From assembly GCA_021810905.1 (NCBI GenBank), contig JAJZQH010000001.1:186001-250000 (forward strand): a stretch of 64,000 bases of DNA, in the 5' to 3' direction. Positions within the stretch are counted from its first letter, which is position 1, and each line of letters begins with the position of its first letter. Origin of the DNA: a bacterium. Lineage in GTDB: Bacteria; UBA10199; 2-02-FULL-44-16; JAAZCA01. Below, one piece after another: positions 2,222 through 25,310 of the stretch. The notes beneath the pieces were generated by a model. The model did not search any database and was not told the DNA's origin. It saw only the letters and a list, made by a program, of their open reading frames with translations. The position numbers and the translations under genes are program-made.

Positions 2222-3248
2222 CTTTCGAAGCCAGTTGCCCGCATGCCGCGAGTATCTCCTGGCCGCGGCTTACCCTTATGTTGACCTGGATACCGTTCTC
2301 GCGAAGGAGGTCCGCCCATCGCTCCACCGTCTCCGGCAACGGAGCATCCATCCCCGAGCCTTCGAACGGATTGAACGGGATCAGGTTGACCTTTGCCCGC
2401 ATGCCGCGAAGCAGGGAGACGAGCCGCTTCGCATCGGTCATCGTATCGTTGATGTCGCGTATCAAGACGTATTCGAACGTGACTCGATGCCTTGTGCGAT
2501 GCGAGTATTCGCGGCAAAAATCCATGATCGCGGCTATCGGGTAGCGCTTATCCACGGGCATGAGCCGCTGTCTCACTTCATCGGTCGTGGCATTGAGCGA
2601 TATGGCGATCTTGATGTCGAACCTGCGGCTGAACGCGTCGAGCTGAGGGAGCAGGCCTGACGTTGAAAGCGTCACCCTCCTCTTTGAAAACCCGAACGCG
2701 CGCGTATCGAGCATGAGCTCCACGGAAGACGAGACCGCGTCCAGGTTAGCGAGCGGCTCGCCCATTCCCATGAGCACGACGTTGGTAATCGGCTCAGGAC
2801 TCTCGCGCATGGCGAGGATGAGCTGCCCAAGTATCTCGCCCTGAGTGAGGTCGCGCACGAAGCCCATGCCGGCCGTGCGGCAGAAGGCGCAGCCCATGGC
2901 ACAGCCGACCTGCGTGGATATGCAGGTCGTGACGCGTCCGTCCTCGGCGGGGATGATGACGCACTCCACTGCATTGCCGTCTGTGAGCCCACAGAGAAAT
3001 TTGCGCGTAGAATCCGCTGCGGTCTCGACTCCCGCCTTTTCAACAGCGGAAATTTTGTATTTTTTCGCGAGCTCGTCGCGCGCCTGCTTAGTGAGATTAG
3101 TCATCTCGGAAAAATTCGAGACGCGCCTGCGGTAGAGCCACTCGATGATCTGCTCCACGGCGAATGGCTTGAGACCGAGTTCGGCAACGATCGCCGGGAG
3201 GCGATTGAGAGGGATGTCTGTTATGATTTCACTCATGACACTAATCAC
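2205..3248 (-). CDS. rlmN: 23S rRNA (adenine2503-C2)/tRNA (adenine37-C2)-methyltransferase RlmN
   Basis: Radical SAM methyltransferase that places a C2 methyl on A2503 of 23S rRNA and A37 of some tRNAs, supporting translational fidelity. The 4Fe-4S-binding CxxxCxxC is at residues 116-123 (CAMGCAFC), and the C-terminal catalytic cysteine is present at about 336 (LAACGQL). The 347-residue length is normal for RlmN. The SAM-binding MGMGEPLANLD motif is also present. The frame opens with GTG at 3248, overlapping the HAD gene stop as GTGA; an in-frame ATG at 3236 is the alternative. Coupled translation with the upstream HAD hydrolase is likely. Confidence 0.95.
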   Translation of the reverse strand: MISVMSEIITDIPLNRLPAIVAELGLKPFAVEQIIEWLYRRRVSNFSEMTNLTKQARDELAKKYKISAVEKAGVETAADSTRKFLCGLTDGNAVECVIIPAEDGRVTTCISTQVGCAMGCAFCRTAGMGFVRDLTQGEILGQLILAMRESPEPITNVVLMGMGEPLANLDAVSSSVELMLDTRAFGFSKRRVTLSTSGLLPQLDAFSRRFDIKIAISLNATTDEVRQRLMPVDKRYPIAAIMDFCREYSHRTRHRVTFEYVLIRDINDTMTDAKRLVSLLRGMRAKVNLIPFNPFEGSGMDAPLPETVERWADLLRENGIQVNIRVSRGQEILAACGQLASKAVIGE

Positions 3249-3937
3249 GCTATCGCAGAGAACAGCGGCAACTTCGGCAGCTCAGCGATTTTGGCGACCG
3301 TCATGCACTCTGCGTCGGGCTTCCTGCCATGACGATCCACAAGTATTGGCGTCATGCCGGCGCCCTTTGATCCCAGCACGTCAACGTCATAGAGGTCGCC
3401 CACATAGATGCTGCGTTCTGCGCTGACACCCATGGCTGCTGCCGCCCTTTCGAATATGCGTTTGTCAGGCTTTGCAACGCCCTCAACGCCTGAATCCAAT
3501 ATGACCTCAAAACGCGAATCCAGGGCCGTGTGCTCAAGGAGACGCTTGATCTGCCCTTCCGCGTTGGAGATCACGCCGAGCTTCATGCCGCGCTCGCGGA
3601 ACCAGTCCAGAGTCTCGCGCGTGCCCTCGTCCGCCCTTGCCCAGAAGAGATGGCGAAACGGATGCGTGCGCACGGCGTTCATGGCATCCTGTATGCGATC
3701 CTCATCCATGTGTATGCGTTCGAACCACCTGCGGTAGGTCTCGCGCCAGAGGACATCCTGACCCTTTCCAGGCAGGCCATCTCGAATGACCGATTCGAGA
3801 GTCGCCTGATGCGCCTCCTCGAGTTCCTGCGAGCTGATTGCAACTCCGAAGCGATCGGACAATAGATCGCGGAGAAAGTCATAATTGTAGAAAAAGAGCG
3901 TATTGCCGATGTCGAAAAAAATGGCGTCGTATTTCAT
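3245..3937 (-). CDS. HAD-superfamily (subfamily IA) hydrolase
   Basis: A 230-residue HAD hydrolase. Motif I is FFDIGNTL with nucleophile Asp9, motif II is VISNAEG, motif III the Lys of VAKPDKRIF, and motif IV GDLYDVDVLG. The second motif-I aspartate, the usual acid/base of phosphatases, is Gly11 here. This variant is common in uncharacterised subfamily IA members, so the substrate cannot be given. The cap is an alpha-helical insertion after motif I. ATG at 3937 has AAGGG upstream. Its stop overlaps the rlmN start by 4 bp, so the two form an operon. A heptad hairpin lies immediately upstream. Confidence 0.85.
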   Translation of the reverse strand: MKYDAIFFDIGNTLFFYNYDFLRDLLSDRFGVAISSQELEEAHQATLESVIRDGLPGKGQDVLWRETYRRWFERIHMDEDRIQDAMNAVRTHPFRHLFWARADEGTRETLDWFRERGMKLGVISNAEGQIKRLLEHTALDSRFEVILDSGVEGVAKPDKRIFERAAAAMGVSAERSIYVGDLYDVDVLGSKGAGMTPILVDRHGRKPDAECMTVAKIAELPKLPLFSAIA

Positions 3938-3954
3938 CGTGATTCCCTTTAAAA

Positions 3955-4026
3955 GTTAGAAGCCAGAATACAGAAGTCAGAATACAGAATCCAGAAGTCT
4001 GATGTATTCTGAATTCTGGATTCTAG
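3955..4026. repeat. Heptad hairpin, CAGAANN type
   Basis: The left arm reads CAGAATA, CAGAAGT, CAGAATA, CAGAATC, CAGAAGT in strict 7-base steps. After a 5-base turn, TATTCTG AATTCTG GATTCTA provides the complement, giving a hairpin of about 20 pairs. It fills the gap between the HAD gene start (3937) and the end of the glycerol-1-phosphate dehydrogenase gene (4037). It is the same vocabulary as the repeat at 29843-29910. Confidence 0.85.
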
Positions 4027-4036
4027 ATTGCAATCT

Positions 4037-5377
4037 CTACCGCACACCGGTCCATCTATCAAGCATTCCAGCGGCAAATGCAACATCGAGAATCGTGAAC
4101 CGGTTGCGCACGCAGAATGAGAGCGCAATTGCGTCGAGGAAAGAGTCGCGCGAAACGCCGATCTCAGCGGGGCTGGTCTTTGCGCCTGCGGATTTCAGCA
4201 CTGATTCGATCTCGGATGCGGGCTTCAAGAAAGAACGCGCAGACGCCTTGATGTCGGTCCACATGTCGATAATTTTTTCCGCCTCCGCGATGGCTGCGAC
4301 ACTGTTCCCGCGCTTTTTCGCGAATGCTTCCTTTATGGCATCAGCGGCGTGAGGGAGTAGATCGCAGCAGCGCGCCAGCGCCGCGTCACCGCGCTCCCAT
4401 ATGCTCTCGATGGAGGACCTTTCGATAGCATCCACACTCGTGCGCAAGAACTCTTCGTAGATCGCGGCCGACGCTATCGTCCCGATGCCGACCTCAACGC
4501 CGTGAAAGTCCGGCTCGCGCCCATCTATAGCCGCGCGCATATCGAGGAAGTGCGCGATGAGGTGCTCGGCCCCGGATGCAGGCTGCGAGCTCCCAGCTAT
4601 CACCATGGATATGCCCGCAAAAACGAGCGCCTCGGTAAGCGCCGCGATCGCCTGCGGGTCTCGCTGCTGAAGTAGATGCGCCCTGCCGATATAAACGTGC
4701 TCCAGGTCGCGGATCATTTCGAACGGTCTCATACAGAAACGCTCTCCACGGATGAGCGACGCGATCCGCCAGTCCGCATTGCACACGGGCTTTGAAAGGA
4801 TGTCACCAAGCCCCGCGCGGATCATCTCCATGGGCGCATTCGCGAGCACGTCGAGGTCCGCGATCACGGCCACGGCCGGAGTAATCGGCATGGTCGCCTT
4901 GAGCCCGTCTCTGGTGAGCGCCGCGATACCGGAGGCATAGCCGTTCATCGAAGGCGCCGTAGCCACGGCGATCTGCGGGAGGCCCTTGCGATATGCTGCC
5001 CATTTGCAGAGATCGGTGATCGTGCCGGAGCCGCATGAGATGAAAGCTGCTGTATCGGCAGGAACTGCGGCGGCTATCGCCTCGGCGATCGCGTATTCAG
5101 CCTTGGGCCGCCCGGGCAGCACGCGCGCATGCACTTTAATTCCAGCGGAGCCCAGGACCGAAGCAACGCGCTCCCCGGCCACGTGATGCGTGATCTCATC
5201 AAAGAGGAGAAAGATAGGGCCGGACAACTGCTGCCGCTGCATGACCTCGGCGACGCGAGAGATCGCGCCCGCCTCAATCACGACCTCGCGCACCGGCACC
5301 TCGTGCATTGCGCCGCATTCGCAGGAGAAGCGGGTGCCGAGGAGCGCAACTCTCTCTCTTGAAAATAATGAGCTCAT
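4037..5377 (-). CDS. egsA: sn-glycerol-1-phosphate dehydrogenase, AraM/EgsA family
   Basis: Iron-alcohol-dehydrogenase/dehydroquinate-synthase fold enzyme. The family reduces dihydroxyacetone phosphate to sn-glycerol-1-phosphate with NAD(P)H. This is the lipid-backbone stereoisomer of Archaea; a few bacteria also make it (AraM of Bacillus subtilis). Seen: the nucleotide-binding GSGTITDLCKW, the TAPSMNGYAS block, and metal-ligand positions in GLGD, SGAEHLIAHFLD and FHGVEVGIG. Length 446 is at the long end. The N-terminus carries Cys residues (FSCECGAMHEV). No clear Shine-Dalgarno precedes ATG 5377. No partner lipid enzyme is adjacent. Other members of the fold (glycerol dehydrogenase, DHQ synthase) fit less well because the TAPS(M)xGYAS block is diagnostic. 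Confidence 0.85.
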   Translation of the reverse strand: MSSLFSRERVALLGTRFSCECGAMHEVPVREVVIEAGAISRVAEVMQRQQLSGPIFLLFDEITHHVAGERVASVLGSAGIKVHARVLPGRPKAEYAIAEAIAAAVPADTAAFISCGSGTITDLCKWAAYRKGLPQIAVATAPSMNGYASGIAALTRDGLKATMPITPAVAVIADLDVLANAPMEMIRAGLGDILSKPVCNADWRIASLIRGERFCMRPFEMIRDLEHVYIGRAHLLQQRDPQAIAALTEALVFAGISMVIAGSSQPASGAEHLIAHFLDMRAAIDGREPDFHGVEVGIGTIASAAIYEEFLRTSVDAIERSSIESIWERGDAALARCCDLLPHAADAIKEAFAKKRGNSVAAIAEAEKIIDMWTDIKASARSFLKPASEIESVLKSAGAKTSPAEIGVSRDSFLDAIALSFCVRNRFTILDVAFAAGMLDRWTGVR

Positions 5378-22861: not shown

Positions 22862-22894
22862 GCAGACCCCGCAAAAAAAAAGACATCGGGTCAG

Positions 22895-22967
22895 TGGAGC
22901 TGAGGGGAATCGAACCCCTGACCCCCACAATGCCATTGTGGTGCTCTCCCAGCTGAGCTACAGCCCC
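22895..22967 (-). tRNA. tRNA-Ala (GGC)
   Basis: 73 nt on the minus strand without encoded CCA. The acceptor pair is GGGGCTG/CAGCTCC with discriminator A. The anticodon loop ATGGCAT is closed by a CCACA/TGTGG-type stem, and the T-loop is GGTTCGATTCC. Anticodon GGC reads alanine GCC/GCU codons. Confidence 0.96.
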
Positions 22968-22992
22968 ACTAACCCGACGTCAAAAAAACCGC

Positions 22993-23026
22993 TTTCAGCT
23001 ATCAGCTCTCAGCCTTCAGCTCAAGG
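22993..23026. repeat. Heptad array, CAGCNNT type, single arm
   Basis: Reads CAGCTAT, CAGCTCT, CAGCCTT, CAGCTCA in 7-base steps between tRNA-Ala and the hutI stop. It uses the same vocabulary as the hairpin between rplL and rpoB (57312-57400), but here only one arm is present. Confidence 0.7.
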
Positions 23027-23046
23027 AGAAAATTGATCAATCACCG

Positions 23047-24279: not shown

Positions 24280-24360
24280 AGAGATGAAGGATACCGGGGT
24301 AATTCTACTACGGCAATTTAAAATTTTGAGAGGACTGCGCGGTATAGAAAAGGAAAATGC

Positions 24361-24424
24361 GAAACGAGCCGAAAGAGAACTGAAATCGGAAAACGGAAAA
24401 ACGGAATCCGAAAAACGAGAAAAG
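24361..24424. repeat. Degenerate CGGAAAA-type array, single arm
   Basis: Runs of CGGAAAA, CGGAAAAA, CGGAATC, CGAAAAA, CGAGAAA occur with roughly 7-base spacing, upstream of hutI and downstream of the minus-strand four-helix-bundle gene. No complementary arm. Less regular than the other arrays. Confidence 0.5.
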
Positions 24425-24446
24425 AGGGCCCTATGGGAGGGCCCCG
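24419..24446 (-). terminator. Terminator overlapping the stop of four-helix-bundle gene 1
   Basis: On the minus strand GGGCCCT and AGGGCCC pair across a 5-base loop, followed by CTCTTTTC. The stem includes the last codons and the TAG stop. The T-run is short, so efficiency is uncertain. Confidence 0.5.
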
Positions 24447-24766
24447 ATCATCACTGATGCCAGTCTGAGCTGTGATTTGTACGAGTCACGCTCTGTTCTC
24501 TTCATGATCCCGAATGCAAAGGCAAGATCCAGACAGGCCGCTACCTCGGCCATTGATCCCAGGCTCATTTCAAAAAACCGCCGCCGCTCGCCTGCTGACG
24601 ACCTCTTGGCGTTGCCCTCGGCCAACGTGAGCACGCTTGACGCCATGGCCCTGCGGAGTTGATCCGCGAGGTATCCATAACCCCTGGGCCATGTGGCCAC
24701 CCTCTTTGCAATCCCCTCTGCCGCTCGAATCAACTCTTGGTAAACCCTCAATCTTTCGTGATTCAT
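24431..24766 (-). CDS. Four-helix-bundle protein (23S rRNA intervening-sequence protein family), copy 1
   Basis: 111 residues. The sequence NHERLRVYQELIRAAEGIAK, then YLADQLRRAMASSVLTLAEG, then RRRFFEMSLGSMAEVAACLD matches the S23/IVS-type four-helix-bundle family, known from ORFs in 23S rRNA intervening sequences; a related fold serves as the Avd accessory protein of diversity-generating retroelements. Homopentamer formation and nucleic-acid binding are known for relatives; the function here is unknown. ATG 24766 has GGGGAGG six bases upstream. It is divergent from a second copy at 24850, about 65 percent identical by eye, across a near-perfect palindrome. Confidence 0.88.
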   Translation of the reverse strand: MNHERLRVYQELIRAAEGIAKRVATWPRGYGYLADQLRRAMASSVLTLAEGNAKRSSAGERRRFFEMSLGSMAEVAACLDLAFAFGIMKRTERDSYKSQLRLASVMIGALP

Positions 24767-24778
24767 GATTCCTCCCCG

Positions 24779-24837
24779 GTTTGATGGTTTTTGTTGCCCT
24801 CTCACCCGGGGCGGGAGGGCAACAAAAACCATCAAAC
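24779..24837. repeat. Perfect 23-bp inverted repeat between divergent four-helix-bundle genes
   Basis: Arms 24779-24801 and 24815-24837 are exact reverse complements (the left arm begins GTTTGATGG and ends GCCCTC), separated by 13 GC-rich bases. The symmetry continues imperfectly outward into both Shine-Dalgarno sequences. The whole 83-bp spacer between the two start codons is therefore palindromic. Each mRNA leader would fold, and both genes must be expressed from within or across it. Confidence 0.95.
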
Positions 24838-24849
24838 GCGGAGGTTTAT

Positions 24850-25185
24850 ATGCTTCACGAAAGACTGAGGGTTTACAAGGAGTCGGTTCAGTTGGCAGAG
24901 GGGCTGAGCAAAGAGGGTGCCACATGGCCCAGAGGATTCGGTTATCTTCTCGATCAGCTCCGCAGGGCCATGGCGTCCGTTGTGCTCAATACCGCCGAGG
25001 GCAACGCCAGGAAGTCCCGTTGCGAGCGACGGAGGTTTTTTGAAATAGCGAGGGCTTCTGTAGCCGAGGTAGCTGCCTGCCTGGATCTCGGGTGTGCATT
25101 CGGGATCATGAAGAGAGTTCAGACTGACTCGTACAAATCACAGCTCAGCCACGTCAGCAGGATGCTCTGGGGGCTCATCAGATGA
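24850..25185 (+). CDS. Four-helix-bundle protein (23S rRNA intervening-sequence protein family), copy 2
   Basis: 111 residues, divergent partner of the gene at 24431-24766. It keeps LHERLRVYKES, YLLDQLRRAMASVV, ERRRFFEIARASVAEVAACLD and TDSYKSQL. Differences are concentrated in helix 1 and the C-terminal tail. ATG 24850 (MLHERLRV) follows GGAGG six bases upstream; the frame is open from 24781 but the extension lies inside the palindrome. The two proteins could form a mixed assembly. No reverse transcriptase or variable repeat is present, so it is not a retroelement accessory gene here. Confidence 0.88.
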   Translation: MLHERLRVYKESVQLAEGLSKEGATWPRGFGYLLDQLRRAMASVVLNTAEGNARKSRCERRRFFEIARASVAEVAACLDLGCAFGIMKRVQTDSYKSQLSHVSRMLWGLIR

Positions 25186-25200
25186 GCCTCTCTCTCTCAA

Positions 25201-25310
25201 ACGTTCGCTCGATATCGTTCTTGTTCGCAGTTATTCGCTCTTACTCGCAGTTTCATCGCAATATCATCTGTCATCGCTTGTTTATTCGCTGTTGTCTGCT
25301 CGAATTTTTT
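25201..25310. repeat. Short tandem array with about 10-base TCGC period
   Basis: TCGTTCTTGT, TCGCAGTTAT, TCGCTCTTAC and TCGCAGTTTCA follow one another in 10-11 base steps, then decay. It sits between the convergent ends of the second four-helix-bundle gene and the flavin reductase gene. No complementary arm. Confidence 0.5.

Follow-up and report, generated by a model that had tools for sequence, protein, structure and literature searches.

The 64,000-nucleotide stretch of DNA analysed here (the window) contains two divergent genes of the IVP family, gene A on the reverse strand (24431-24766) and gene B on the forward strand (24850-25185). Each encodes a four-helix-bundle protein of 111 amino acids, and profile searches of the region 24431-25185 assigned both to PF05635 (23S_rRNA_IVP) and to TIGR02436. 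The PF05635 scores of the pair were 55.1 and 70.3 bits (curated cut-off 33.8; E=1e-14 for A, E=1.9e-19 for B), with TIGR02436 scores of 51.3 and 67.6 bits against a cut-off of 24. The two genes share 66% amino acid identity and 72% nucleotide identity, and are separated by an 83 bp spacer (24767-24849). The spacer holds a palindrome with arms at 24779-24801 and 24815-24837, complementary at 23 of 23 positions, on either side of a 13-nt loop (TCACCCGGGGCGG, 24802-24814). This is the longest perfect-arm palindrome in the window, the runner-up having arms of 13 bp, and RNA folding of the spacer gave z-scores of -8.9 and -10.4 for the two strands relative to shuffled sequences. The Shine-Dalgarno (SD) sequences of gene A (CCTCC as read on the forward strand, 24771-24775) and gene B (GGAGG, 24840-24844) sit outside the arms on either side, are mutually complementary, and are paired in the fold. 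A search for sigma-70-like promoters gave none in the spacer or its vicinity, and no promoter was detected inside the palindrome. A first-pass annotation of this DNA had described a divergent IVS-type pair differing at about a third of positions, with identical 23-bp arms across an 83-bp spacer and ribosome sites around the stem, all of which these data bear out.

The symmetry extends further than that annotation recorded. The entire segment 24465-25148 forms a single imperfect inverted repeat, and the initial ~20 nt following each start codon belong to a symmetric block that spans codons 3-9 of gene A (24740-24760, reverse strand) and of gene B (24856-24876, forward strand). Degenerate short-period arrays lie beyond the genes, with an A-side tail at 24345-24430 and a B-side tail of TCGC units at 25199-25306. 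The unit has a size of approximately 850 bp, with hutI on one side and a flavin reductase gene on the other.

We searched 60 genomes related to the assembly of the window and additionally performed a class-wide scan of 46 genomes; all genomes compared are drafts and apparently metagenome-assembled. The arrangement of IVP gene, palindrome and IVP gene was found in several copies each in G002, G003, G004, G042 and G053 among the 60 related genomes. In the class-wide scan, element-type genes were present in 6 of the 46 genomes (G000, G002, G003, G004, G033 and G042), 5 of which contain intact pairs, with the remaining genomes possessing single IVP genes or none. Copies or fragments number approximately 5 in G000, 6 in G002, 4-5 in G003, 5 in G004 and 8 in G053, and occupy more than 10 contig places in G042. 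The search of related genomes revealed no IVP element in G001 or G005, and no IVP gene at all in G001. Repeats commonly break contigs in assemblies, and many copies of the element likewise end at contig edges, with fragments at contig ends in G000, G002, G003, G004, G033 and G042. The carriers include 'Bdellovibrio sp.' FI88_57_8 (G004), Deltaproteobacteria NC_groundwater_228 (G033), delta proteobacterium AlinenLipids_bin-3264 (G042) and Myxococcota Arabian9_MAG_24, while Bdellovibrionales CG12_65_38_15 has a palindrome next to an IVP gene with no recognisable partner gene. The distribution reaches beyond the related delta-proteobacterial genomes into more distant lineages.

The neighbours of 18 copies, named from their own sequence rather than by family search, represent nearly as many contexts; they are ordinary genes, among them guaA, dnaE, frr and the hut genes. 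The hut locus is accordingly not a special target. Decayed copies that have lost the centre are frequent (L045, L048, L058, L060, L064, L065, L069 and L070). The IVP proteins are the only protein content of the unit, which contains no recognisable transposase or reverse transcriptase, and no transposase was prominent among the neighbours of the 18 copies.

Comparison with relatives also revealed unoccupied sites, resolved at the gene level only. In the window, hutU and hutI are separated by the flavin reductase gene and the element; the same two genes lie 7 bp apart in G001 and approximately 119 bp apart in G003, providing the element-free hut loci that had been proposed as a check. In G004 a centre-deleted copy occurs downstream of hutU with an A/B order opposite to that of the window, suggesting that insertion there was probably independent. 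Similarly, the guaA-dnaE gap is 107 bp in G002, and two elements and a small ORF are found between these genes in G004. One unit is therefore found at differing sites, with unoccupied gene junctions in relatives, as is generally expected of a mobile element. Dispersal of the element is well supported, and the window locus is a single copy of a small repeat element that is apparently selfish and mobile, as had been surmised from the sequence of the window. Short-period arrays lacking an IVP gene were seen at both empty junctions (L199 4405-4560 for hutU-hutI in G003; L237 1381-1520 for guaA-dnaE in G002), and could possibly reflect a target preference or an excision scar.

The sequences outside the genes, which may represent ends, targets or scars, vary between lineages, with degenerate arrays of ATCGC or TCTC types in G000, G002 and G004, and of TGATC/GATTA type in G003. 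As in the window, short-period arrays occur on the A side of the G002 and G004 copies, and an ATCGC-type tail on the B side of the G002 copies. The G003 repeat is hairpin-forming, 92-105 bp long, and present in approximately 20 solo copies; L050 is flanked by 105-bp direct repeats of it (3197-3301 and 4104-4208) that are 98% identical. We note that this repeat resembles a solo terminal repeat. Among the flanks read in search of a target-site duplication (G003, G042, G002 and G000), those of G042 have outward ATCGAAGTT ends on two sides, as read from one locus with both ends, which may be short terminal inverted repeats. Inverted short-period arrays were also observed around single IVP genes of Opitutales, Anaerolineae and others (including L100, L116, L122, L137 and L146), where they look like an IVS stem made from simple repeats.

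Both proteins are constrained. Among copies of G002, G003, G004 and G042 the dN/dS ratio is 0.02-0.2 for both genes, indicating that both are under strong purifying selection among the dispersed copies; a comparison of A and B in the window gave 0.40. A tree of 65 proteins, which rests on few alignment columns and should be read with caution, contains two paralogue groups. The pairs of G003 and G042, and that of one G004 element, combine one protein from each group. Both proteins of a pair belong to a single group in the G000/G002/G004 lineage, and gene A of the window clusters with B genes (support 98/95), which suggests a renewed duplication or homogenisation. The IVP family is chiefly known from rRNA gene insertions and diversity-generating retroelements (DGRs), and PF05635/IVP proteins have no known catalytic residues. 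The AlphaFold model of gene B (pLDDT 96.6) consists of four helices, and is matched best by 2gsc (TM-score 0.87-0.90) and 2rld, followed by the Avd protein of DGRs (PDB 4dwl, 8ub7; TM-score ~0.8). Both 2gsc and 2rld contain five chains, while the proteins here were modelled as monomers. A link between PF05635 and Avd has been described (PMC10053308).

It is possible, if the less likely course, that the unit is a non-autonomous passenger of a known transposase acting in trans, for example a Y1/RAYT-type HUH enzyme acting on hairpins, with the IVP pair as cargo or accessory factors. The unit has no recombinase of its own, hairpin-forming arrays and solo repeats surround it, and of 10 genomes checked, 9 have Y1_Tnp proteins, with G004 (83% complete) as the only carrier without them. 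However, Y1 proteins are equally present in genomes without a detected IVP element (G001 and G005), and with Y1 transposases present almost everywhere their occurrence is uninformative. Furthermore, the palindrome is central to the unit as opposed to terminal, and the strong constraint on the proteins of dispersed copies suggests that both are needed for spread. Given this central position, the suggestion in the first-pass annotation that the palindrome may be a recombination or mobility end is not supported.

The core shared by the elements consists of IVP genes A and B, each reading outward, on either side of a palindrome with 20-23-bp arms and a 10-13-nt loop. Every intact pair in the relatives has such a palindrome, and the spacers are of one architecture, so that neither pairs lacking the palindrome nor pairs with unrelated spacers were encountered; a start-proximal palindrome is mostly absent from single IVP genes elsewhere, other phyla included. 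Across 23 spacers, the two arms of an element pair at 90% of positions; the figure is 64% when arms of different elements from one genome are compared, and 36% across genomes. At least two Watson-Crick types occur at each of 22 arm positions, and the mismatches that are left stem mostly from single-base indels. As pairing is kept within the element and not between genomes, the two arms change together. Together with the arm identity among diverged copies and the loop inversion described below, this supports the suggestion, made from the window alone, that the identical arms imply selection or repeated correction.

A passive palindrome, in other words an old inverted duplication in which hairpin-templated correction (by template switching in replication) maintains the identity of the arms while the palindrome itself has no function, would account for part of this pattern. 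The 12-nt loop of L050 is inverted relative to those of L052 and L053, a sign of hairpin processing or template switching, and the synonymous symmetry peaks near the centre. Correction within one copy would leave the arms of separate copies free to diverge, yet four copies in G053 have identical 20-bp arms despite a synonymous divergence of approximately 0.6-1.3, and arms are identical among G003 copies at a dS of approximately 0.2-0.5. Identity of arms between such diverged copies is not explained by correction inside a single copy. In addition, the loop sequence TCA...GGGyGG or a near variant is kept across genera (the window loop matches the pattern TCAnnnn..GGGyGG), and the symmetric block of the gene starts stops abruptly, with A versus B identity per 9 nt falling from 1.00 (15/15 elements) to 0.89, 0.57 and 0.40. 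We consequently consider a purely passive palindrome unlikely. The conservation pattern indicates that the palindrome is maintained for its structure and also as a site, and a role in cis is well supported.

The complementarity of the SD sequences across the palindrome means that a read-through transcript buries the SD in the base of the stem. For 35 gene starts, the predicted pairing probability of the SD averaged 0.96 in through-transcripts versus 0.48 in half-transcripts starting in the middle of the palindrome. Such sequestration would suit autoregulation, and together with the purifying selection on A and B could indicate a resident host regulatory gene pair, with the palindrome as operator or bidirectional attenuator and the copies as ordinary paralogues. 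This is improbable, given that related genomes contain from 0 to more than 10 copies, that these occur as contig-breaking repeats beside unrelated neighbours, that relatives lack the pair at the corresponding gene junctions, and that decayed centre-less copies are common. A canonical 23S rRNA intervening sequence (IVS) with its S23/IVP ORF can be dismissed almost entirely, since the protein family is identical but the locus lies outside rRNA genes, no Rfam family reached the gathering score in the surrounding loci, and two genes enclose a hairpin that is central instead of terminal.

The best explanation, which we favour with reasonable though not high confidence, is a selfish, dispersing relative of the rRNA IVS. 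Its two proteins would recognise the palindrome at its centre, and its hairpin would also conceal both ribosome sites when transcripts read through. A binding site for the element's own proteins appears to fit the palindrome best, recognition being proposed on the basis of homology to Avd and the conservation pattern. By analogy with Avd, A and B may form pentameric, perhaps heteromeric, nucleic-acid-binding barrels. The protein pair would bind the central palindrome together with the symmetric gene-start blocks, as a hairpin or cruciform. Binding could limit the synthesis of A and B and also expose the element to copying or insertion, perhaps through a recombination activity supplied in trans. 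When transcription reads through from a neighbouring gene, both ribosome sites would be buried and the element would remain silent unless transcription begins inside it. Silencing in read-through transcripts is a feature of IS10 and IS50. More tentatively, the paired Avd/IVP four-helix-bundle proteins might themselves constitute the mobility machinery, despite having no known catalytic residues, through action on the hairpin or cruciform formed by the palindrome between their genes; the element would then represent a new class of mobile element, with rRNA IVSs as its one-gene relatives. A resident reverse transcriptase seems not to be needed, with RVT_1 not found in the carriers G002, G003, G042 and G053.

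The element shares with rRNA IVSs a PF05635 protein, a sporadic distribution, hairpin formation and the description as selfish. The Coxiella burnetii 23S rRNA IVS, for example, is 428 nt long and has an S23/IVP ORF (PMC4990558). However, rRNA IVSs are inserted in a 23S rRNA helix and have a single ORF within a terminal complementary stem, in contrast to the free-standing intergenic unit described here, with two divergent paralogues, a central palindrome and many dispersed copies per genome. DGRs resemble the element in the fold of Avd, but possess a reverse transcriptase and template/variable repeats, both absent here; the lack of a reverse transcriptase from the unit also led us to reject a DGR as its identity. 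REPIN/RAYT systems (PMC3116915) are similarly made of dispersed palindromic units without a transposase of their own, but REPINs encode no protein, whereas the element encodes two under selection. Single IVP genes (Opitutales, Bacteroidetes and others; L100-L166) belong to the same family, and several have inverted short-period arrays alongside, but they comprise one gene and mostly lack the start-proximal palindrome. In the literature searched, which left most subscription papers outside it, we found no earlier account of dispersed IVP elements with paired genes and a palindrome at the centre. How rRNA IVSs spread, and what the S23/IVP protein does, has been a question for approximately 30 years; in the account given by PMC4990558, the IVS ORF as a component of mobility is an old proposal of Ralph & McClelland 1993. 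Here, S23/IVP proteins are found with an element that proliferates outside rRNA, and are probably its driving force; the form is minimal, two proteins and one palindrome, and makes the question directly testable. Genes that carry the annotation 'four helix bundle protein' in genomes from the environment may also be markers of mobile elements.

Further identities were considered and rejected. No relative was found in viral contigs or phage genomes, plasmids yielded distant cyanobacterial genes only, and no PADLOC model for anti-phage defence systems matched. Any long hairpin gives chance miRNA-precursor matches in Rfam, and the palindrome produced only such matches, far below the cut-off. Elsewhere in the window, further degenerate intergenic arrays without IVP genes are present at 3921-4040 and 22990-23030 (CAGAA..., CAGCTCTCAGC...), and a PD-(D/E)XK endonuclease-like gene (PF11645; 22445-22936, reverse strand) adjoins a tRNA-Ala gene (22894-22967) just past hutI.
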